A DNA stretch of 64,000 nucleotides, taken from positions 1 through 64,000 of the forward strand of contig DASWYF010000022.1 of the NCBI GenBank assembly GCA_036405135.1, read 5' to 3'. Origin of the DNA: Verrucomicrobiia bacterium. GTDB lineage: Bacteria > Verrucomicrobiota > Verrucomicrobiia > Limisphaerales > JAEYXS01. The notes under the pieces were generated by a model. The model had not been told where the DNA came from. It ran no database searches and was given only the letters and a program-made list of their open reading frames with translations. Made by a program: the position numbers and the translations under genes. This document shows, piece by piece, positions 12,666 through 34,382 of this stretch. Every line of letters begins with the position of its first letter. Position 1 is the first letter of the stretch.

Positions 12666-13175
12666 TTATGCCTCACCAGCAGCAGAGAGAGCGGCTTGGG
12701 CTAAGGCTTCGCTGATGTGGAAACTGTGTTCGGTGCGCAGGGAGTCCAGTAGTGGTTTGAGGGCAGAGATTTTACCGGCGTTTTTGGCGGCGAGCAAAAT
12801 ACCCAAGGTGCCAGCGGGCTTGAGGCCTAAACGCACGGCCGCACGGCGTCCAGCGGCATCGTCTATCAGAATGGTGGTGGCACCGGTTTCCAAAGCTAAC
12901 AAGATCGCAGCGGCTTCTCCGGCATCCAGCTCTGAGGTTAACAGTGGCGTGAGCGGACCGGTGGATGGATGTTTGATGATGATCCATCCAGCAGAAACTG
13001 CGGCACGCAGTTCAGCAGCTCCTTTTAAGGCTGCGTTGGCATCAGCTACTTCGTGGAAAACTTGGTCTGGGATCAGGAGCTGCGAATATAGCTGGCGCAG
13101 CAAATCGAATTGCCGGATGGCGGCCAGGAAAACGATGACCGAGGAATCACTGACGATGGGTGAATTCGCGGGCAT
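12666..13175 (-). CDS. DUF3368 PIN-like nuclease (putative toxin)
   Basis: A 169-residue protein resembling the DUF3368 family of VapC-like PIN nucleases. It opens with IVSDSSVIVFLAAI, containing the first PIN-type Asp. TSELDAGEAAAILLALETGA and TILIDDAAGRRAAVRLGL supply the later acidic residues, and GTLGILLAAK is typical of this family near the C-terminus. ATG at 13175 was chosen because the protein then starts MPANSPIVSDSS. The start lies inside the 3' end of the UPF0175 gene, a 29-base overlap that indicates translational coupling. The pair runs against the surrounding DUF1549/DUF1501 genes. Probably an RNA-cleaving toxin; activity is not shown. Confidence 0.85.
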   Translation of the reverse strand: MPANSPIVSDSSVIVFLAAIRQFDLLRQLYSQLLIPDQVFHEVADANAALKGAAELRAAVSAGWIIIKHPSTGPLTPLLTSELDAGEAAAILLALETGATTILIDDAAGRRAAVRLGLKPAGTLGILLAAKNAGKISALKPLLDSLRTEHSFHISEALAQAALSAAGEA

Positions 13176-13413
13176 GAGCGAGGTCTTGGGCCAGTTCGGT
13201 TTCGCCGTAGTGCATGGGGACGTGACGACGGGCAAGTGTTTCCGTCATGGTTTGACGGGAAATTCCGGCCAGTTCGGCAGCCTTGCCCAAGCCCAAGATT
13301 TCTTGCGCGTAAAAAGAAATGGCAAGTTCGAGCTTCATGCGGGCCTCCACTTCGGGCGGAGGCAGGCGCATGGCTTCCACCACTGCATCCGAGATTTCCA
13401 GAGTGACGCTCAT
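13147..13413 (-). CDS. UPF0175-family antitoxin
   Basis: An 88-residue protein with the UPF0175 pattern: a short N-terminal strand (MSVTLEISDAVVEAMRLP), then ELAISFYAQEILGLGKAAEL and AGISRQTMTETLARRHVPMH, a helix-turn-helix-like segment ending at the usual YGETEL. UPF0175 proteins are regularly encoded just before DUF3368 nucleases and are taken as their antitoxins. Here the two genes overlap by 29 bases. It probably also represses its own promoter, in the spacer upstream of 13413. Confidence 0.87.
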   Translation of the reverse strand: MSVTLEISDAVVEAMRLPPPEVEARMKLELAISFYAQEILGLGKAAELAGISRQTMTETLARRHVPMHYGETELAQDLAHAREFTHRQ

Positions 13414-13475
13414 AAACGAACAGTAAGGGAAAACGGCCTCTGATGCAACACCAGCGAAAAGGCGGCTTATCCTCT

Positions 13476-13847
13476 ATGAAAACGACGCCAAAATCGAGAT
13501 TCGTACTGATAACCCTGATTGTCTGTTTGGTTTCGGTGGTGCTGTTGGCACCGTTCATATTAGACCATGTCAAAGCAAGGAAATCGCATCAGGAATGGCA
13601 ACAGAAGGTGACGGTTTCTAAGATTCTTTTGATGGCGCTTGATAATTATCAAATGCGCGAAGGGCAGTATCCGAATAGTATGAATGATCTGGGTATGGAA
13701 TTAGATCTGATTTTTAAAGATGCACATCTGGCGAAAGGTCTTGCACGTTTCACTTATGAGAGAGCCGCCGATGGTGGGTTTGAGTTGAAATGTGACGGTG
13801 ATTCGGTGGCCAAACGAAGCAACCATGAGTTGTCCTCCAAGCCTTGA
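13476..13847 (+). CDS. Small membrane-anchored protein, pseudopilin-like
   Basis: A 123-residue protein with a basic N-terminus (MKTTPKSR), one hydrophobic helix (about residues 9-29) and a soluble remainder. ILLMALDNYQMREGQYPNSM followed by DLGM resembles the segment after the helix in type II secretion major pseudopilins (GspG), where a variant of ALxxYxxxxGxYP recurs. There is no prepilin cleavage motif of the (G/A)-F-xxx-E kind, so it may be a fixed membrane relative rather than an assembled pilin. It ends 14 bases before the DUF1501 start and probably shares its transcript. ATG at 13476 was preferred to 13443, whose extra 11 residues look unstructured. Confidence 0.7.
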   Translation: MKTTPKSRFVLITLIVCLVSVVLLAPFILDHVKARKSHQEWQQKVTVSKILLMALDNYQMREGQYPNSMNDLGMELDLIFKDAHLAKGLARFTYERAADGGFELKCDGDSVAKRSNHELSSKP

Positions 13848-13861
13848 TAGAATTTTCAGAC

Positions 13862-15340
13862 ATGAATGACGATATTTCAAATCCACGGTTGGCGGCGATG
13901 CGGGCGATGACGCGGCGGACGTTTTTCGGGCGCGCGGGTCTGGGGCTCGGCGCGCTGGCGTTGGGGCAACTGGGATTGCGCGGAACGTCGTCTTCAGCAG
14001 CACCAGCGGTGGCGGGGGGGAATCCTTTGGCGGTGCGAGCGCCGATGTTTGCGCCGAAGGCGAAGTCGGTGATTTATCTGCACATGTCGGGGGCGCCGCC
14101 GTCGCTGGACCTGTTCGATTACAAGCCGAAGTTGAAGGAGTTGAACATGCAGCCGTGTCCGCAATCGCTGCTGGATGGACAACGGTTCGCGTTCATCAAG
14201 GGCGTGCCGAAGATGCTGGGCTCGCCGTATGAGTTCAAGCAGCGTGGGCAGGCGGGCATGTGGGTGAGCGAGACGTTGCCGCACTTCTCAAAGATCGTGG
14301 ATGACGTGTGCCTCGTGCGCTCGATGAACACGGACCAGTTCAATCACGCGCCGGCGGAGTTGTTTCTCTACACGGGGTCATCGCGCGCGGGCAGTGCCTC
14401 GATGGGTTCATGGCTCACGTATGGCTTGGGCAGCACGAACCAGGATTTGCCGGGGTTCGTGGTGTTGCTCTCAGGCGGCACGGATCCGACAGGTGGGAAG
14501 AGTTTGTGGAGTAGCGGATTTTTGCCATCGGTTTATCAAGGCGTGCAATGCCGTTCGCAGGGCGAGCCGATCTTGTTCTCGAACAATCCGGAGGGCATGA
14601 GCCGGGAATCGCGGCGGCGCAGTCTGGATGCGTTGGCGAAGTTGAACGAGATCGAGGCGAAGCAGTTCGGCGATCCGGAAACGCTCACGCGCATCCAGCA
14701 ATACGAGCTGGCGTATCGCATGCAGATCGCGGTGCCGGAAGTGTTCGATATCGCGCGTGAGCCAGAACATATCCGCGAGGCATATGGCGCGAAGCCGGGC
14801 GAGGCGTCGTTCGCGAACAATTGTTTGCTGGCGCGACGGCTGGTGGAGAAGGGCGTGCGGTATGTGCAGCTTTATGATTGGGGCTGGGACATCCATGGCA
14901 CGGGCGCGGGCGATGATTTGATGACGGCGTTTCCGAAGAAGTGTCGGGATGTGGATCAGGCGGCGGCGGCGCTGATCACGGATTTGAAACAGCGCGGGAT
15001 GCTGGATGATACGCTGGTGATCTGGGGCGGAGAGTTCGGTCGCACGCCGATGAATGAGGAACGAAACGGCTCGAAGCTCTTGGGGCGCGATCATCATCCA
15101 CACTGCTTCAGCATCTGGATGGCGGGCGGGGGCATCAAGGCCGGGCACATCCATGGTGAGACGGATGAACTGGGCTACATGATCACGCGCGACAAGGTGA
15201 CGATCCGCGATCTGCAATCGACCATCCTACATCAGATGGGCATGAACCCGCATCAATTCAGCTTCCGTTATCAGGGATTGAATCAGCGGTTGATAGGGCC
15301 GACGGATGAGGGTGTGGTGGTGAAGGGGATTCTGGCGTAG
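13862..15340 (+). CDS. Tat-exported DUF1501 protein, copy 1
   Basis: A 492-residue DUF1501 protein, related to the alkaline phosphatase/sulfatase fold. The Tat signal is TRRTFFGRAGLGLGALALG (about residues 15-40). Conserved segments include [18 protein letters not shown], a DQFNHAPAELF stretch, GGEFGRTPMNE and LGRDHHPHCFSIWMAGGG, which hold likely metal ligands. DUF1501 proteins are exported partners of DUF1549/DUF1553 proteins; enzyme activity is inferred only from the fold. Start at ATG 13862, because the upstream in-frame TTG at 13844 overlaps the previous gene. It is separated from its DUF1549 partner by about 1.3 kb of unrelated genes. Confidence 0.92.
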   Translation: MNDDISNPRLAAMRAMTRRTFFGRAGLGLGALALGQLGLRGTSSSAAPAVAGGNPLAVRAPMFAPKAKSVIYLHMSGAPPSLDLFDYKPKLKELNMQPCPQSLLDGQRFAFIKGVPKMLGSPYEFKQRGQAGMWVSETLPHFSKIVDDVCLVRSMNTDQFNHAPAELFLYTGSSRAGSASMGSWLTYGLGSTNQDLPGFVVLLSGGTDPTGGKSLWSSGFLPSVYQGVQCRSQGEPILFSNNPEGMSRESRRRSLDALAKLNEIEAKQFGDPETLTRIQQYELAYRMQIAVPEVFDIAREPEHIREAYGAKPGEASFANNCLLARRLVEKGVRYVQLYDWGWDIHGTGAGDDLMTAFPKKCRDVDQAAAALITDLKQRGMLDDTLVIWGGEFGRTPMNEERNGSKLLGRDHHPHCFSIWMAGGGIKAGHIHGETDELGYMITRDKVTIRDLQSTILHQMGMNPHQFSFRYQGLNQRLIGPTDEGVVVKGILA

Positions 15341-15411
15341 CGGCGAAATGATGAATGTCTAAGCATCAATGGCGAAGGAATGTTCGAATGCCTATGTCTG
15401 AAGGGTGATGA
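15341..15411. repeat. Degenerate direct-repeat tract between convergent genes
   Basis: The 71-base gap between the DUF1501 gene and the PQQ-like gene reads as loose repeats of GAATG and TCGAATG-like units (AATGATGAATGTCTAAGCAT, then GGAATGTTCGAATGC). It resembles the tracts near 6580 and 8838. No terminator hairpin is obvious. Confidence 0.45.
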
Positions 15412-22823: not shown

Positions 22824-22904
22824 GGCGGGAATTATTTTTCGGGATTTTCCGGTTTTGAGCGGGTTTTTATGCGTAAGATGCTCGTGATAAGTTGGTTGCG
22901 CTGT

Positions 22905-22950
22905 TTGAAAATATTTTCAAGAAAATGGCCCTATGACAGCGGATGTCATA
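22905..22950. promoter_or_regulatory. Two palindromes upstream of DUF1549 gene 2
   Basis: TTGAAAATATTTTCAA (22905-22920) is a perfect 16-base palindrome. TATGACA-GCGGA-TGTCATA (22932-22950) has perfect 7-base arms around 5 bases. They are 12 bases apart and about 210-250 bases before the gene. The second has the size and symmetry of a dimeric repressor site. Confidence 0.4.
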
Positions 22951-23156
22951 CCTGCGCCGTTATGGTAGCGGGCATGAAGATTGAGACAGGGAATGAAAAT
23001 GGCGGGGGGAAGGCGGCGGCTCCGGTGGAGTCGGGGGCAGGATTTTACATTGGGGCGGTGGATTTCTTTATGGTTGGAGGCGGGCAAAAGGGATATGGTG
23101 CGGACATTCGCCGTGTAACCCGTTTGCTGAGCCAGCGCGTCTGGTTCTTTATCGCT

Positions 23157-26100
23157 ATGATTTTGGGTCGTCAACGGAAGTGGTTGCTGCTGTGGGCGGG
23201 GATCGCGTGGACTGGATTTCAAGCGCACGGGGCGGAGGTGGATTTTGCCAAGGATGTGTATCCGGTGTTGCAGCGCGCTTGCTTTGAGTGTCATGCGGCA
23301 GAATTGCAGAAGGGGAAGTTGCGGGTGGATTCGCGGGAGGCGTTGCTCGCGGGAAAAGTGATCGTGCCGGGGAAGGCTTCGGAGAGCGAGTTGTACCGGC
23401 GCATCACGTTGCCGAAGGGGCATGAGGAGGCGATGCCGAATCGCGGGGAGCCATTGAGCAAGGCGGAGGTGGGGAAGATCCGGGCATGGATCGATGCGGG
23501 AGCGAAGTGGCCGGAGAATTTCACGGGCGGGAAGCACTGGGCGTATGAAGTGCCGAAGCAAGCGGCGCTGCCAGCGGTGAAGCAGAAGGCGTGGCCGAAG
23601 AATGCGGTGGATCACTTCGTGCTCGCGCAGTTGGAGCAGGAGGGTTTGAAGCCATCGCCGGAAGCAGACAAGGCGGCGCTCATCCGGCGCGTGACGCTGG
23701 ACCTGACGGGGCTGCCGCCGAAGCCGGAGGAAGTGCAGGCGTTTCTCGCGGACAAGAGCGCGAATGCTTATGAGAAGCTGGTGGATCGCTTGCTGGCATC
23801 GCCGCAATACGGGGTGCGTTGGGCGAGGCCGTGGCTGGACCTGGCGCGGTATGCGGATTCGCACGGGTTTCAGCGGGATGATCTGCGGGACTTGTGGCCG
23901 TATCGGGATTGGGTGATCAATGCGTTGAACGCGGACATGCCGTTCACGCAATTCACCATCGAGCAACTGGCGGGCGATCTGTTGCCGAACGCGACGGATG
24001 CGCAGAGGGTGGCGACGGGATTCAACCGGTCCGCGCCGACGAATGTGGAGGCGGGCAGTGATCCGGAGGAGACGCGGGTGAACCAGGTGCTGGACCGCGT
24101 GAACACGCTGGGTGCGGTGTGGTTGGGGACGACGCTGGAGTGCGCGCAGTGTCATAATCACAAGTATGATCCGATCACGATGAAGGATTACTACGGGTTG
24201 TTCGCGTTCTTCAACAACACGGCGCTGGAGGCGGACCGGACGAATCCGAAGGTGCCGGGCTCCATCCAGTTCAAGGGACCGTTCCTGACGGTGGAGGATG
24301 CGGAGACGAAGGCGGCGCGCGAGAAGTTCACGGCGGAGATGAGCAGCATGGATGAGAAAATCGCCGAGCGGGAGAAAGCGCTAAGCGGCCAGGTGGCGGA
24401 GATGGAGAAGGCGCTGGCGGCGAAGGTGGGGAAAGTATTGCAGGAGCATGTGCTGGAGATCGCGCAGTTCGAGACGAAGGAAGGTTCGGCGGGGCAAGTG
24501 CTGCCGGACAAGTCGGTGCTGATCAATGACGAGGCGCCGGACAAGGACACGTATATCGTGACGGTGAATACGACGTTGAAGGACATCACGGGGTTCAAGC
24601 TGGAGACGCTGACGGATGCGTCATTGCCGGGGAATGGGCCGGGTCGTGGGGATGACAAGCGGCCGAACTTTGTGCTGAACACGTTCGCGGTGAGCGCGGC
24701 GAAGCAGAACAGCAGTGAGACGAAGCCGGTGAAGCTGGCGAAGGCGAAGGCGGATTTCGCGCAGAAGGGTTTTGATCCGGAAAGAGCGATCGATGAAGAC
24801 GCGAAGTCGGCGTGGGCGATCAACCCGCAGTTCGGCAAGCCGCATTGGGCGACGTTTGAGACGGCGGAGCCGGTGGGGTTTGACGGTGGAACGAAACTGA
24901 CGTTCACGCTGGTGCAGGAGTTTGGCGGTGGACGGTTGATCGGCCGGATGCGGCTGTCGGCATTAACAGGAAATCCGGAGGCGGAAGCGATGCCGGCGGA
25001 GGTGGTGGCGGCGCTGAAGGTGGCGGAGGCGAAACGCAATGCGAAGCAGAAGAAGGCGATCACGGAGTTTTGCCTGGCGCAGGATGAGGAGTTGCGGAAG
25101 TTGCGGCTGAAGAAGCTGGATCTGGATCGCAAACTGAAAGCGGCGAAGGGGCAATCCACACTGGTGATGCAGGAGGTGGAGCAGCCGCGGATGAGCACGG
25201 TTTTCGGGCGCGGAGATTTTCGGAGTCCGGGGGAGAAGATTGCGCCGGGTGTGCCGGGGGTGTTGCATAAATTCAATTTTAGTTCAAAGACCGCAAACAA
25301 AGCGGACGCGTTGCGGCCGGCTGAGGACAGCCAGCCCTACCCGACACGGCTGGATTTGGCGAAGTGGCTGGTGGACCGCGAGAATCCGTTGGTGGCGCGG
25401 GTGACGGTGAACCGGTGGTGGATGGAGTTGTTCGGACACGGACTGGTGGCGACGGCGGAGGATTTTGGCATCAAGGGCGAAACCCCGACGCATCCGGAGT
25501 TGCTCGATTGGCTCGCGGTGGAGTTCATGGACAAGGGGTGGTCGATGAAGCAGACACTGAAGACGATGGTGATGTCGGCGACTTACCGTCAGGCGTCGCG
25601 GGTGAGCACGGAGTTGCTGGCGCTGGATGATCAGAATAAATTGTATGCGCGCGGACCGCGCTTCCGCATGGATGCGGAGATGATCCGGGACAATGCGCTG
25701 GCGATGGCGGGTCTTATCAGTCTCGAACAGGGCGGGCCGCCGATCAAACCGTATCAGCCGGATGGTTTGTGGCTGAAAGTGGGCGGGCAGAAGTATGATT
25801 ACGTGGTGAGTCCGGGTGAGGAGAAGTATCGGCGCGGCGTGTATGTGGTGTGGAAACGCGGTGCGCCGTATCCGAGCTTCACGACGTTCGATGCGAGCGG
25901 ACGCATGGCCTGCACGGTGAAGCGGTCGCGCTCGAACACGCCGTTGCAGGCGCTGACGCTGCTGAATGATCCGGTGTATGTGGAGGCGGCGTTCGGGCTG
26001 GCGCAGCGGTTGATGCGCGAGGTGCCGCAGGCGGATGTGGGGGCACGGATCGAGAGGGCGTTCACGATCTGTCTGGCACGCGTGCCGAAGGCGGAGGAGG

Positions 26101-26282
26101 CGAAGGTGTTGGCGGAATTGTACGCGAAACAACTGGCGGCGTATCGTGCGGATGCGAAGGCGGCGAAGGAGTTGCTAGGAAATTTTGAGGCGCCGAAAGG
26201 TGTGGAGGCAGCGGAGTTTGCGGCGTGGTACGGCGTGGCGACGGCGATGTTGAATCTGGATGAGACGATCACGAAGAATTGA
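23157..26282 (+). CDS. Secreted DUF1549/DUF1553 cytochrome-like protein, copy 2
   Basis: A 1041-residue paralogue of the protein at 9116. A signal peptide (MILGRQRKWLLLWAGIAW... to about residue 25) leads into a cytochrome domain with CFECH (C42, C45, H46), DUF1549 (IRRVTLDLTGLPP, DLARYADSHGFQRD, IEQLAGDLLP, second CxxCH in CAQCH), a charged coiled middle part and DUF1553 (VNRWWMELFGHGLVATAEDF). It lacks the clear F5/8 region of copy 1. ATG at 23157 is chosen; the frame stays open to 22869, but that part has no signal-like N-terminus. Near residue 720 the sequence RPAEDSQPY is encoded by a copy of a dispersed hairpin repeat. Confidence 0.9.
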   Translation: MILGRQRKWLLLWAGIAWTGFQAHGAEVDFAKDVYPVLQRACFECHAAELQKGKLRVDSREALLAGKVIVPGKASESELYRRITLPKGHEEAMPNRGEPLSKAEVGKIRAWIDAGAKWPENFTGGKHWAYEVPKQAALPAVKQKAWPKNAVDHFVLAQLEQEGLKPSPEADKAALIRRVTLDLTGLPPKPEEVQAFLADKSANAYEKLVDRLLASPQYGVRWARPWLDLARYADSHGFQRDDLRDLWPYRDWVINALNADMPFTQFTIEQLAGDLLPNATDAQRVATGFNRSAPTNVEAGSDPEETRVNQVLDRVNTLGAVWLGTTLECAQCHNHKYDPITMKDYYGLFAFFNNTALEADRTNPKVPGSIQFKGPFLTVEDAETKAAREKFTAEMSSMDEKIAEREKALSGQVAEMEKALAAKVGKVLQEHVLEIAQFETKEGSAGQVLPDKSVLINDEAPDKDTYIVTVNTTLKDITGFKLETLTDASLPGNGPGRGDDKRPNFVLNTFAVSAAKQNSSETKPVKLAKAKADFAQKGFDPERAIDEDAKSAWAINPQFGKPHWATFETAEPVGFDGGTKLTFTLVQEFGGGRLIGRMRLSALTGNPEAEAMPAEVVAALKVAEAKRNAKQKKAITEFCLAQDEELRKLRLKKLDLDRKLKAAKGQSTLVMQEVEQPRMSTVFGRGDFRSPGEKIAPGVPGVLHKFNFSSKTANKADALRPAEDSQPYPTRLDLAKWLVDRENPLVARVTVNRWWMELFGHGLVATAEDFGIKGETPTHPELLDWLAVEFMDKGWSMKQTLKTMVMSATYRQASRVSTELLALDDQNKLYARGPRFRMDAEMIRDNALAMAGLISLEQGGPPIKPYQPDGLWLKVGGQKYDYVVSPGEEKYRRGVYVVWKRGAPYPSFTTFDASGRMACTVKRSRSNTPLQALTLLNDPVYVEAAFGLAQRLMREVPQADVGARIERAFTICLARVPKAEEAKVLAELYAKQLAAYRADAKAAKELLGNFEAPKGVEAAEFAAWYGVATAMLNLDETITKN
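25313..25341. repeat. Hairpin repeat family B inside a coding sequence (copy 1)
   Basis: A 29-base sequence identical to 37487-37515. It is read in frame as RPAEDSQPY in the linker just before the DUF1553 domain. The hairpin has arms GGCCGGCT and AGCCAGCC around GAGGAC, followed by CCTACC. Confidence 0.85.
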
Positions 26283-26288
26283 GAGGCT

Positions 26289-26783
26289 ATGGATTACAGA
26301 AGCTCAAAGCTCAAAACTCAAAGCTCAAAAAAAGCTCCAGTTGGAAATGGCCAATGGGAGGCGGGCGATGAATTTTTGTATGATGCCTGGCTGGAGTCGG
26401 CCGATTTAACCCTGATTCTGAAGGATGAAACAGTTCTGCCAAACGGAAAGCCTAGAGATTTGCTGGAGAGAACGGCGCAGTTCGGGGAAGCCATTGTCAG
26501 ATTCGCCAGGAAAGTTCCTTTGCATCCTGCCAATACGCGTTTGATAAGCCAGGTGGTAGGCGCTGGAACGAGCGTTGGAGCAAATTATTGTGAAGCCAAC
26601 GAAGCGGTCTCCAAGAAGGATTTCCGGTTTATGATCAGCCGTTGCATGAAAGAGGCCAAGGAAACCAAGTTTTTCTTGAGGATGATAGCGGCCTCCGAAG
26701 CCGCGTTAGCTGAAGAAGCCAGAACACTGTATAAAGAAGCACACGAGCTGCTTCGCGTTTTCGGAAGTATGAGACATCATTAG
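26289..26783 (+). CDS. Four-helix-bundle protein (S23/TIGR02436-like)
   Basis: A 164-residue protein whose core (about residues 55-155) fits the four-helix-bundle family related to the S23 intervening-sequence protein and to Avd of diversity-generating retroelements. It reads GKPRDLLERTAQFGEAIVRF, then ISQVVGAGTSVGANYCEANE, AVSKKDFRFMISRCMKEAKE and TKFFLRMIAAS. Family function is unknown in this setting. The gene lies between a DUF1549 and a DUF1501 gene, 6 bases after the former. Its first 17 codons run through the left arm of a 37-bp inverted repeat, so the true start may be further in, for example a TTG near residue 30. No reverse transcriptase or rRNA gene is nearby. Confidence 0.88.
   Translation: MDYRSSKLKTQSSKKAPVGNGQWEAGDEFLYDAWLESADLTLILKDETVLPNGKPRDLLERTAQFGEAIVRFARKVPLHPANTRLISQVVGAGTSVGANYCEANEAVSKKDFRFMISRCMKEAKETKFFLRMIAASEAALAEEARTLYKEAHELLRVFGSMRHH
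26303..26339. repeat. Left arm of 37-bp inverted repeat around the four-helix-bundle gene
   Basis: An imperfect tandem of CTCAAAG/CTCAAAA units ending AAGCTCCA. The reverse complement of 26795-26831 matches it at 34 of 37 positions. It lies within the first codons of the four-helix-bundle frame. Confidence 0.85.
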
Positions 26784-26794
26784 TAATTTAGGCT

Positions 26795-26831
26795 TGGAGC
26801 TTATTTTGAGCTTTGAGTTTTGAATTTTGAG
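26795..26831. repeat. Right arm of 37-bp inverted repeat around the four-helix-bundle gene
   Basis: Starts TGGAGCTTATTTTGAGC and continues as GTTTTGAATTTTGAG-type units. It ends 7 bases before the DUF1501 start codon at 26839. See the left arm at 26303-26339. Confidence 0.85.
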
Positions 26832-26838
26832 ATTAGCC

Positions 26839-28266
26839 ATGAACAACCATAGCGACATCAGTCACGTGATTCCCCGGCGGGAGTTTTTTCGGCGGACCAG
26901 CCTTGGGTTTGGGGCCATGGCGCTTTCGTCGTTGCTGCGGGGGGAGGCGTTGGGGGCGGTGAATCCGCTGGGGTTGCATCAGCCGCATTTTGCGCCGAGG
27001 GTGAAGCATGTGATTTATCTGCACATGATCGGGGCGCCGTCCCAGTTGGACCTGTTCGATTATAAGCCGACGTTGCAGAAGCTGGATGGGGAGGCTTGTC
27101 CGGAGTCGCTGACGAAGGGGAAGCGCTTTGCGTTCATCGGGGACAATCTTAAATTGTCGGGGACGAAGTTCAAATTTTCGCAGCATGGAAAGAGCGGGCA
27201 GAGCATTTCGGAGTTGCTGCCCTTTCTGGGCAAGGTGGCGGATGATATCGCGGTGGTAAGATCGTTGCATACGGATGAGATCAATCACGCGCCGGCGCAG
27301 ATGTTTTTGCACACGGGGTTTGGGCGCGGTGGGCGGCCGAGTTTTGGTTCGTGGGTGTCTTATGGATTGGGCTCGGAGAACCGGGATCTGCCCTCATACG
27401 TGGTGATGTTGTCAGGCCCGCCGGGTGGGGCGGGGACGAGCTTGTGGTCGAGCGGGTTTTTACCGAGCGTGTATCAAGGCATCCAGTTCCGTTCGAGCGG
27501 GGATGCGGTGTTATTTCTTTCGAATCCGAAGGGGCACAACCAGGAGCAGCGGCGGCAGGTGCTGGATGCGGTGAACCAGTTGAACCAGGCGCAACTGGCG
27601 GATGTGGGCGATCCGGAGATCGCGACGCGCATCAGCCAGTATGAGATGGCGTATCGCATGCAGACCTCGGTGCCGGAGTTGATGGACATCTCGAAGGAAT
27701 CGCCGGATACATTGAAGCTCTACGGAGCGAAGCCGGGCGCGGCGTCCTTTGCGAATAACTGTCTGCTGGCGCGGCGATTGGTGGAGCGGGGCGTGCGGTT
27801 GATCGAGTTGTATGATTCGGATTGGGATCATCATTCCAACTTGGAGAATCGTTTGCGGGCGAAATGTAAGGATGTGGATCAGGGGATGGCTGCACTCATC
27901 ACTGACTTGAAGCAACGCGGATTACTGGATGATACGCTGGTGATCTGGGGCGCGGAGTTCGGTCGTACGCCGGTGGGCCAAGGCATCAATGGTGATGGGG
28001 CGAAGACGTCACCGGGGCGAGATCATCATAAGGACGCTTACACGATGTGGCTGGCGGGCGGGGGCATCAAGGGCGGGGTCAGCTATGGGGAGACGGATGA
28101 ATATGGGTTCAACGTGGCGAAGAATCCGGTGCATGTGCATGACCTGAACGCGACGGTGCTGCATCTGCTGGGGATGGATCATGAGCGGCTGACGTTCAAG
28201 TATCAGGGGAGGGAGTTTCGGTTGACGGATGTGCATGGGCACGTGGTGAAGGGACTGCTGGCATGA
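26839..28266 (+). CDS. Tat-exported DUF1501 protein, copy 2
   Basis: A 475-residue paralogue of the protein at 13862. The Tat signal is [20 protein letters not shown] (about residues 12-31). Shared motifs are [39 protein letters not shown] and [17 protein letters not shown], including probable metal ligands. It forms a functional pair with the DUF1549 protein at 23157; the four-helix-bundle cassette separates them. ATG at 26839 is used because the upstream TTG at 26827 lies in the right inverted-repeat arm. Exported enzyme of the alkaline phosphatase-like fold; substrate unknown. Confidence 0.92.
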
Positions 28267-30823: not shown

Positions 30824-30980
30824 GGTGGTAATCCTTGAAAGGAAGATGGCACGTCCATCTGCCTAGGGCAAGACGGCACTTCCCATCCTTTGCCGTTGAT
30901 TCTGTGCGGGGGTTGGTTCAACAATGTCGCGCGTTCAGCCTGGGGTTCGTATAAGGGCTTCGGGGTGGCGCATATTTACC

Positions 30981-33272
30981 ATGGCAGGCGAGTCTTACAT
31001 TCCTAAGCCGCTCGATACGAGCAAGGTCCAGCTCACGGACGAGATCATCCGTCTCACCGAACTTTTTGCAGCCAATGCGCACGATGTCTGGGCGCAGCAA
31101 CGTGTGCTGGAGGGCTGGGTTTTTGGTCCTAACCGGGACGATGAAAAGAAAGAGCATCCTTCGCTCATTCCCTACGAGCAGCTTCCGGAGAGCGAGAAGG
31201 AGTATGATCGCAAGACGGCGCTTGAGACCGTCAAGACATTGATCTCGCTGGGTTACAAGAAGGACAAGGCAGGTCGTGAAACTTTGGTGGCGAGTGATGA
31301 TCTGAAGCAGCGGGCGAACGAGGTCATCGATAAGATGAAGAATCCGAAGCTGACGATCGCTGAATTACGTCGCTTTTGGGAAGAGCGTTTGCAGCTCGTC
31401 TGGTTTCAGAATGTGCAGGTTTACCGGCGCGCGGTGGATAACGCCCTGAAACTGGGTGAAGCATTTTTGGCCTTCGACATCACGGAGGAAGGTTTGCAGG
31501 CGTTTCCGGGTGACTTGCGTTTGATACAGTTGCAGGCACTGGCGTTGGCACGCACGGGTGCGACACGTCGGGCGAATGCGATTCTCGAGCAGCTCCGTCT
31601 CTCTGGTCACAAGGATGAGGAGACATTGGGCATCCTCGCCCGCACACACAAAGATTTCTGGCAGCTCGCGGCTGATCCCGAGGAAAAGCGCAAGCATCTC
31701 AAGACCAGTTACGAGCTTTATCTGGAAGGTTATCGCCGGAACACGGGCTACTACACCGGCATCAATGCGGCCTCGATGGGTCTGATCTATGGCGAGCGTG
31801 AAGCGGCTCAGGAGATCGCCCGCGCAGTAGTCGAGATGTGCTTGAGCAAGCTCGCTGCGTTGGGGCCGGATTCGGATGAAGCGTACTGGCTTGAGGCGAC
31901 TTTGGCGGAGGCGTATCTGATCTTGGGCGATATGACCCAGGCGGAGCAGTACTACAAGCGTGGCAGCACGGGCGGTGTTAGTTCCGTGGTGCTCAGTCGC
32001 ACACGTTCGCAGGCGCGTCTGCTCTCGGAATACATCGCAGGTGATACGCACCTGATGGATCATTGTTTTTCATTGCCGCGTATCGCAGTGTTCTCCGGGC
32101 ACATGTTTGACCGGCCAGGTCGGAAGAATCCGCGTTTCCCACATACTATCGAACCGCAAGTCCGGTTTGACATCGTGAAACGTCTGGAGCAGGTGAAGGC
32201 GCAGGTGGGATACTCGTCTTTGGCCTGTGGCGGTGACATCATCTTTGCCGAGGCTCTGCTACATCGCGGTGGTGAGGTGAACATCGTGCTGCCGTTCAAG
32301 AAGGAGGACTTCAAGAAGGCGAGCGTGGACATCATGGAGGGCACGGACTGGGGCAAACGCTTCGACCGGATCATAGAGAACGCGGCGACAGTGACTGTGC
32401 TCAGCGAACTGGGTGATGCGAATGACGGTGCGGCATATGATTTTTGCAACCAGGCCCTGAGCGGACTGGCGATCTTGAAGAGCCGGTTCCTCGGCATGGA
32501 CGTGGTGCCGATCGTGGTGTGGGACGGCAAGATGGGTGATGGCCGTGGTGGCACGCAGACGTTTGTAGATTATTGGCAGAACAAGCAGAAGGCGAACGTG
32601 GAAATCGTGGCCTTGGCGGATTATCTGCCCAAAGAACCTCTGACCCCGAGCGGGGGAACAGGTGATGAAAGCAGAGTGACGAAGTATCCAGCTCTGCCTG
32701 TGCCGGCATCGGCTGCCAGCAAGAACGTGATGGCGACGGGACAGGAGATCAAGGCGATGATCTTCACGGATATCGTAGGTTACACGAAGCTCACGGAAGT
32801 TCAGATTCCCGGATTCGTGCACAACTTCCTCGGCAAGGTCGCAGAATTGATGGAGCGCATGGAGCGTCCGCCCATCCATCAGAACACTTGGGGTGATGCG
32901 GTGTGCGCGGTGTTTGATCGGGTGGAAGACGCGGGAAGTTTTGCATTGAACATGCGCGATCTGGTGCGCGGCACAGACTGGAGCCATTACGATCTGCCGG
33001 AATTGAACATCCGCATCGCGCTGAACGCCGGACCGGTGTTCACATGTTATGATCCGGTGTTGCGCAAGCTGACGTATAACGGCTCACATGTGAATCGCAC
33101 GGCACGCATTGAACCGATCGCTGAGGAAGGTCAGATCTACGCTTCGGAGGCATTCGCTGCGTTGTCTGCGTCCGAAGGGGTTTCTGCGTTCACTTGCGAT
33201 TACGTCGGCACGAAGCAGCTCGCCAAGAAGTATGGGGCGATCCCGGTGTTTCTGGTGCGGCGGACGGCGTAG
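30981..33272 (+). CDS. RyR-domain / TRAFs-binding / class III cyclase protein
   Basis: A 763-residue soluble protein with several domains. Residues 31-94 match the RyR (ryanodine receptor) domain: HDVWAQQRVLEGWVFGPNRD, SLIPYEQLPESEKEYDRKTA and LETVKTLISLGY. Residues about 100-350 resemble the DUF4071/TRAFs-binding helical repeat. Residues about 355-560 look like a Rossmann-type domain (LPRIAVFSGHMFDRPGR, ACGGDIIFAEALL), perhaps SLOG-like. A class III cyclase follows (about 585-760), with metal Asp residues in MIFTDIVGYTKL and NTWGDAVCAVF. It probably makes a cyclic nucleotide in response to a signal read by the other domains. ATG at 30981 is preferred; an upstream ATG-like start at 30924 adds 19 unlikely residues. 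Confidence 0.85.
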   Translation: MAGESYIPKPLDTSKVQLTDEIIRLTELFAANAHDVWAQQRVLEGWVFGPNRDDEKKEHPSLIPYEQLPESEKEYDRKTALETVKTLISLGYKKDKAGRETLVASDDLKQRANEVIDKMKNPKLTIAELRRFWEERLQLVWFQNVQVYRRAVDNALKLGEAFLAFDITEEGLQAFPGDLRLIQLQALALARTGATRRANAILEQLRLSGHKDEETLGILARTHKDFWQLAADPEEKRKHLKTSYELYLEGYRRNTGYYTGINAASMGLIYGEREAAQEIARAVVEMCLSKLAALGPDSDEAYWLEATLAEAYLILGDMTQAEQYYKRGSTGGVSSVVLSRTRSQARLLSEYIAGDTHLMDHCFSLPRIAVFSGHMFDRPGRKNPRFPHTIEPQVRFDIVKRLEQVKAQVGYSSLACGGDIIFAEALLHRGGEVNIVLPFKKEDFKKASVDIMEGTDWGKRFDRIIENAATVTVLSELGDANDGAAYDFCNQALSGLAILKSRFLGMDVVPIVVWDGKMGDGRGGTQTFVDYWQNKQKANVEIVALADYLPKEPLTPSGGTGDESRVTKYPALPVPASAASKNVMATGQEIKAMIFTDIVGYTKLTEVQIPGFVHNFLGKVAELMERMERPPIHQNTWGDAVCAVFDRVEDAGSFALNMRDLVRGTDWSHYDLPELNIRIALNAGPVFTCYDPVLRKLTYNGSHVNRTARIEPIAEEGQIYASEAFAALSASEGVSAFTCDYVGTKQLAKKYGAIPVFLVRRTA

Positions 33273-33380: not shown

Positions 33381-33401
33381 GGAGGAGACGAGACACCGGT
33401 G
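33381..33401 (+). promoter_or_regulatory. Ribosome-binding site that fixes a GTG start
   Basis: GGAGGAG (33381-33387) lies 11 bases before GTG at 33399. It decides the start of the SMI1/KNR4 gene. The competing ATG at 33356 is in another frame that closes after about 32 codons. Confidence 0.7.
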
Positions 33402-34382
33402 CCGCCATCGCCAGTAAATCCTCCGGCCAGTCCTGCCGAGATATCAGCCTTTGAGAAGAAAACAGAAGTCAAACTACCGCCAGCTATGGCGGCACTGTAC
33501 TGCCTGAGTGATGGCGTGCAGCCAGAACACGCCCGGACCTTCAATATCTTACGGCTGATGCCCTTGCAGGAAGCGGCTGAAACGCATGAGAATTTTCAGC
33601 AGACCGGGCTGGGTGAAATGGTGCGCCGCCATGGGATGATCTGTTTCTGGACGGATGATAGCTCCAATTATGCTGGCGTTTTCTGTTCAGGAATCTTTGA
33701 AGGACGGGTGTTTTTCCTGGATCATGATGGGTATTATTCGGGAGATCTATCCCCGCTGTTCCGGTCAGTGGAATCATTCCAAGCATGTCTCACTGAGGCG
33801 GTGGCGAGAAATCAGTTCGTCTATGCTTGCGAAGAGGGTGAAATCGAGATGGAGGAACTGAAAGAGAAGGTCAAGCCGTTCACGCATTATCGCTACTATG
33901 AGTCAATCGATACGGTGAACTGGCATGCCTTCCCGGTGGATTACCCGAGTGAAGCGGAGAAATATACCGAGACCGACCGGGCGGTTTACGAGCAATGCCG
34001 TAACATGCTCGCGAGTTCCAAAGGGGAAGAGGAAAGGCGATTCCTCATCTATGCGCTCGCACGGTTGGTGCCACCCTCGGAAAGAGCCGTGCTGTTACCT
34101 TACTTGAAGGAAGATGACCTGTGGATGCCAGCCCGACTGGCGAGCATGCTGGTTTCAGTGCGGGAGGCCGAGGCAATCCAGCACATCGTCACGCTGGCGT
34201 TGACGGGGAATCATAATTGCCGAGGACCTGCTAAAAGCGCCTTGGCGAAGTTGATCTTGCTGATGCCGCAGGTGCAGGGAAAAATTAAAGTGGAGTATTC
34301 CCGGCTAGGCGGTGACTACAGCGAAATCCAAAGAGATATCAAAGCTTTGGAAAGGTCTCCGACGCTGTTTTATCAGTGGTGA
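33399..34382 (+). CDS. SMI1/KNR4-family protein
   Basis: A 327-residue soluble protein. The N-terminal half (about residues 10-140) is an SMI1/KNR4 domain: ISAFEKKTEVKLPPAMAALY, LSDGVQ, FWTDDSSNYAGVF and GRVFFLDHDG. SMI1/KNR4 proteins are often immunity proteins of contact-dependent or polymorphic toxins, but many are stand-alone. The rest is acidic and helical (EEGEIEMEELKEKVK) with HEAT-like segments. No toxin gene is visible beside it. The GTG start is supported by a strong ribosome site, and the gene follows the RyR-cyclase gene by about 125 bases. Confidence 0.82.
   Translation: MPPSPVNPPASPAEISAFEKKTEVKLPPAMAALYCLSDGVQPEHARTFNILRLMPLQEAAETHENFQQTGLGEMVRRHGMICFWTDDSSNYAGVFCSGIFEGRVFFLDHDGYYSGDLSPLFRSVESFQACLTEAVARNQFVYACEEGEIEMEELKEKVKPFTHYRYYESIDTVNWHAFPVDYPSEAEKYTETDRAVYEQCRNMLASSKGEEERRFLIYALARLVPPSERAVLLPYLKEDDLWMPARLASMLVSVREAEAIQHIVTLALTGNHNCRGPAKSALAKLILLMPQVQGKIKVEYSRLGGDYSEIQRDIKALERSPTLFYQW

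Follow-up and report, generated by a model that had tools for sequence, protein, structure and literature searches.

Gene and domain layout

The window analyzed here is a 64,000-nucleotide stretch of a Verrucomicrobiia genome. Positions 30981 to 33272 of its forward strand, on which all features of the protein given below lie, encode 763 amino acids (stop codon, 33270 to 33272) that join RyR, TPR-S, SLOG, and class III cyclase domains. An alternative start in the same frame, ATG 30924, gives an open frame of 782 codons (30924 to 33272, forward strand), but the ATG at 30981 is backed by homologs, which begin at this second ATG; residues are numbered here from M1 at 30981, and Pfam coordinates refer to the 782-amino-acid frame. 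Full-length homologs keep the same domain order (L042, ~90%, range 89 to 90%; L043 and L044, 63%; L005, 34%), and because the whole frame is conserved in them, it is neither a chance open reading frame (ORF) nor an assembly fusion. A full-length AlphaFold2 model built with 38 aligned sequences has a mean pLDDT of 87.3 and a pTM of 0.79, with low confidence in the linker ahead of the cyclase (residues 553 to 584). The initial annotation had proposed this layout, naming a RyR domain, TRAFs-binding-like helices, a Rossmann domain that may be SLOG-type, and an intact class III cyclase, and all four assignments hold.

The RyR domain (30996 to 31259) is the sole match to PF02026 in a six-frame search of the genome (E = 1.0e-32, above the cut-off); in the 782-amino-acid frame the match spans positions 25 to 112 (E = 7.5e-32; 109.9 bits, cut-off 27.4). 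By phmmer, this part also matches a "putative ryanodine receptor" of B. thetaiotaomicron (3nrt; E = 2e-28). TPR-like repeats that are helical in the structure model follow (residues 105 to 353; 31293 to 32039) and contain a TPR-S match (PF20308) at 31491 to 31778 (E = 8.6e-22), which in the 782-amino-acid frame covers positions 191 to 285 (E = 1.3e-20; 74.3 bits, cut-off 27.6). An overlapping match to MAP3K_TRAF_bd is marginal (24.3 bits, cut-off 24.1); this match corresponds to what had been described as TRAFs-binding-like. An NCBIfam search gave no useful match.

The Rossmann domain (32037 to 32669) was placed by fold search only: residues 380 to 560 of the 782-amino-acid frame match no Pfam family at E 0.1, hence no SLOG family, and a profile search of the PDB gave no sequence match for this part. 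Modeled alone, the domain reaches a pLDDT of 91.8 and aligns to YpsA (2nx2) with a VIA-align Z of 18.4 (159 aligned, rmsd 3.1). Scores are much lower for DprA (Z of 11 to 13), LOG (~10), and TRPM N-terminal domains (≤9.9, TRPM2 chanzyme). All of these belong to the SLOG superfamily, so the structure prediction and fold comparison suggested as a check turned a tentative SLOG call into the right one, and by its modeled fold the domain is a YpsA-like SLOG domain. It carries two conserved sets of alignment columns, GHMxDxPxRxxPRFP (32091 to 32141) and CGGDI (32226 to 32240). Within the SLOG superfamily, cADPR sensors fall in the YpsA-like clade (PMC9503650).

The class III nucleotide cyclase catalytic domain (32742 to 33269) matches Guanylate_cyc (PF00211) above the cut-off (E = 1.6e-9; positions 611 to 749 of the 782-amino-acid frame), and in Foldseek the full-length model matches the class III cyclases RhGC (6sir), CyaB (3r5g), and Rv1900c at E values of ~1e-8 to 1e-7. 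The metal-binding aspartates, identified by alignment, are D597 (32769 to 32771) and D639 (32895 to 32897). Both are kept in 38/38 aligned relatives, close homologs included, as the description of an intact cyclase implied; the sole relatives lacking both are L008 and L009, distant Opitutae proteins that retain TPR-S and SLOG. The transition-state residues Asn705 and Arg709 are present too, the Asn being frequently Ser in relatives. By Pfam score, fold, and the two aspartates, the domain is thus a class III nucleotide cyclase of predicted activity. Canonical base-recognition pairs are Lys/Asp in adenylyl and Glu/Cys in guanylyl cyclases; the corresponding positions here, mapped from alignments to 3et6 and Rv1264, hold N635 and T698, which match neither pair, so that the product base is not predictable from sequence. 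Overall, the domains and sites recognized by sequence or model describe a predicted soluble, multi-sensor class III cyclase.

Upstream of this gene are a DUF4870 gene and an AlkB-like oxygenase gene, and downstream (33399 to 34382) is a gene with a SUKH-1 domain and a weak HEAT-repeat match. The latter was rejected as a candidate partner because, by reading, it is not adjacent in the close relatives L042 to L044. A Pfam scan of the locus found no TIR, effector, or defense gene adjoining the cyclase gene; its neighbors differ from those of the ~90% relative L042, a search for a conserved operon at the locus found none, and a promoter and terminator scan gave nothing above shuffles. Farther upstream (22869 to 28266), three genes resemble, by reading only, the DUF1553/DUF1501 gene pairs of Planctomycetes and Verrucomicrobia: a long one with CxxCH motifs, a small one of four-helix-bundle type, and one with a TAT-like leader.

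A putative ligand site in the RyR domain

In a 2026 preprint, RyR proteins of phages are shown to bind 2'/3'cADPR or to cleave it; RyDEP acts on this molecule via His75, Trp78, His100, and Asp117 and hydrolyzes cADPR with the same His/Asp pair (PMC13232231). The quartet is complete and identically spaced in the window protein (H34, W37, H59, and D76; 31080 to 31208) and complete in 18 of the 21 RyR-bearing rows of the family alignment. Since the majority of tested phage RyR homologs bind without cleaving (PMC13232231), a sensor role is plausible here, and we regard the domain, on the strength of its residues, as a plausible cADPR-type sensor. Its tie to animal calcium release is no more than the common ancestry of the RyR domain.

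Family and distribution

Scanning GTDB genomes turned up 243 relatives; the family study used the best 80, which span Verrucomicrobia, Cyanobacteria, Chloroflexi, Acidobacteria, Planctomycetes, several proteobacterial groups, and others. TPR-S, SLOG, and cyclase form the constant core. RyR is found in 23/80, as an N-terminal fusion in 22 (some partial) and as a separate upstream ORF in one (L084/G222); in L010 to L012 it is the cyclase that stands apart, as its own adjacent downstream gene. On the core tree, RyR presence requires no fewer than 12 changes, indicating repeated gain or loss, and the distribution within the phylum is patchy, with matches to any part of the window protein in 21/388 genomes. 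Nothing related to the TPR-S–SLOG–cyclase part turned up in viral contigs, and plasmids and phages yielded no relative covering most of the window protein; a phage origin of the fusion is unsupported by these searches.

Several other arrangements were seen along the way. In a Rubripirellula MAG, a Ser/Thr kinase gene with a C-terminal RyR (L091:3523-5100) lies directly upstream of the RyR-cyclase gene. An HD domain, possibly a signal-ending phosphodiesterase, is fused to the cyclase gene or encoded directly downstream in two loci (L119:2709-5336, L098:9963-10550). By reading translations, the phylum also has another class of RyR that is more divergent and is found, apparently tandem and C-terminal, on TrkA-N/channel-like proteins (L143, L145, L149, L151, L153, L159), AAA proteins (L141, L144, L150, L152), and a TPR-SLOG-like protein (L140).

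NADase genes beside relatives

Surveying the gene neighbors of homologs, another check proposed at the outset, revealed TIR or DUF4062 NADase genes recurring beside many relatives. A TIR gene lies within 700 bp in 20/80 loci, almost equally frequently without RyR (13/57) as with it (7/23). The first TIR profile was seeded from neighbors at RyR-positive loci, a bias that was checked with curated Pfam models; the curated TIR_2 model, applied to the whole genomes of the 23 RyR-positive relatives, confirmed their TIR neighbors. These genomes hold ~75 TIR genes in ~124 Mb, so that ~0.02 adjacent genes would be expected by chance compared to 7 observed, an expectation that is too small since defense genes cluster. 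In the flanks of the same loci, TIR genes number ~200/Mb up to a distance of 700 bp versus ~7/Mb farther out. Among 69 operon-type neighbors scanned (picked by position; a few TIR genes were put back after their starts had been corrected), TIR_2 is the commonest Pfam family (17/69), and DUF4062 accounts for 4/69. Adjacent TIRs whose alignment spans the NADase-motif Glu, the catalytic residue, retain it. DUF4062 is itself reported to be a TIR-like NADase (PMC13174449). On the tree, NADase adjacency requires at least 20 changes and thus recurs; in the window protein's five-member clade, an NADase-type neighbor occurs in L050 only, as a divergent gene with, by reading, a TIR and a DUF4062-like part.

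The window's own genome has TIR genes on other contigs. One follows a SIR2-STALD gene in a Thoeris-like pair (L124:1-1935, contig C9); on another contig (L123, C24), a ~1,400-amino-acid frame combines, by reading, TIR with WD40-like repeats. As in this genome, a ~1,400-amino-acid frame with TIR is present in each of the genomes of the closest relatives (G388, G389, and G390).

A separate, independent case comes from a Priestia aryabhattai plasmid (NZ_CP128553.1; L122:7154-11780 and 13132-15360), where one operon encodes, in order, PycTM (PADLOC E = 1.7e-29), two proteins of unknown function, cyclase plus TPR-S, and RyR. A TIR gene runs the other way, on the complementary strand, with SIR2 and PLD genes close by. 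This operon looks like an undescribed Pycsar variant.

A proposed relay and its alternatives

We favor, as an even bet, a reading in which the protein is a sensor-cyclase that responds to an ADP-ribose-type signal derived from NAD by producing a cyclic mononucleotide, most likely in anti-phage defense. A TIR or TIR-like NADase would make the signal from NAD+; the signal would bind RyR and perhaps also TPR-S or SLOG; the ligand-bound protein would rearrange, switching on the cyclase dimer; and the 3',5'-cyclic mononucleotide (cNMP) produced would activate an effector. In the window's own genome the NADase would work in trans, and the ~1,400-amino-acid TIR protein is a possible partner. This relay is favored by the domains, the conserved sites, the recurrent TIR/DUF4062 linkage, the divided forms, and the Priestia operon; against it we count the lack of defense neighbors beside the window gene, the difference between its surroundings and those of L042, the N635/T698 pair, the dead cyclases of L008 and L009, and the absence of a matching PADLOC model. 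The initial annotation had suggested that the sensory domains perceive a ligand and control a second messenger, perhaps in defense; the RyDEP residues and the NADase neighbors of the family lend weight to this, and the surroundings of the window gene do not.

The chief weakness of the relay is that relatives lacking RyR have TIR neighbors almost as often, so the true sensor may be TPR-S or SLOG, or RyR may be just one sensor among several. A variant compatible with the favored relay goes further and has TPR-S or SLOG sense the TIR product, with RyR an accessory interaction domain. TPR-S and SLOG are indeed the invariant core and RyR is optional; retention of the RyR pocket residues in most members that have the domain (18/21) nevertheless makes this variant somewhat doubtful. 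Slightly better placed, though still tentative and short of an even bet, is a two-tier form of the relay in which TIR-made cyclic ADP-ribose is read by RyR, which directly gates the cyclic-mononucleotide cyclase. It has long been asked whether RyR repeat domains respond to cADPR directly, and a soluble enzyme whose RyR may control a measurable output allows a direct test.

The main rival reverses the order of events. The cyclase would then sense phage, as in Pycsar, and the cNMP would activate TIR as an NAD-depleting effector, with RyR serving as a safety or feedback device that binds or destroys any ADPR-type signal that has leaked. TIR could stand downstream, as Pycsar TIR effectors do. Pycsar pairs its cyclase with TIR or transmembrane effectors, PycTM shares the Priestia operon with cyclase plus TPR-S and RyR, and hydrolysis of cADPR by RyDEP would suit signal removal. 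We consider this order unlikely, however, since the scanned TIR neighbors carry TPR, WD40, BioY, CsgG, or FGE regions and, among the matches listed, no cNMP-binding domain, whereas PycTIR has one, with which it senses cUMP (PMC11224242); the predominance of binding over cleavage among tested phage RyR homologs also counts against it.

A role outside defense is equally improbable in our judgment. RyR, TPR-S, and SLOG would in that case read a normal adenine nucleotide, or else the NAD state, and tune ordinary cAMP or cGMP signaling, as a metabolic or stress regulator with no defense role in this bacterium. The window locus, with no defense neighbors, and a genome with 10 cyclase and 11 cNMP-binding domain hits would suit such a regulator. 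The recurrent TIR/DUF4062 linkage across the family, the patchy distribution in the phylum, and the Pycsar-type Priestia operon would not.

Comparison with known systems

Burroughs and Aravind (2015, 2020) reportedly predicted TPR-S, SLOG, and TIR as components of nucleotide-based conflict systems. Those systems share with the present family the placement of TPR-S beside NAD-processing TIR-class domains and the use of cyclic-nucleotide signaling. Neither the RyR–TPR-S–SLOG–cyclase architecture nor its TIR/DUF4062 linkage was found in the literature searched, outside which these two papers lie; the components had reportedly been predicted already, and the RyR–cyclase fusion and the linkage are apparently new. 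The family is widespread, with relatives in many phyla, and its partner appears to be a TIR-class NADase.

RyDEP shares all four ligand residues in its RyR domain, but it is a stand-alone phage anti-defense protein, whereas the RyR of the window protein is fused to a bacterial cyclase. Thoeris, with its TIR protein ThsB and SIR2-SLOG protein ThsA, resembles the many relatives in which a TIR gene lies beside a SLOG-containing partner. Its output is a SIR2 NADase; the window protein instead ends in a class III cyclase, adds RyR and TPR-S, and has no adjacent TIR or SIR2 effector gene at its locus. Pycsar, in which the cyclase PycC acts with PycTM or PycTIR, shares the class III-type cyclase output and, in the Priestia operon, PycTM itself; the window protein differs in its large sensor part, in having no effector at its locus, and in matching no PADLOC model. 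If the relay is correct, bacteria chain NAD-derived and cyclic-mononucleotide immune signals; its more tentative two-tier form would unite Thoeris-type with Pycsar-type immunity in a single protein and give bacteria a counterpart to the cADPR control proposed for RyR channels in animals.
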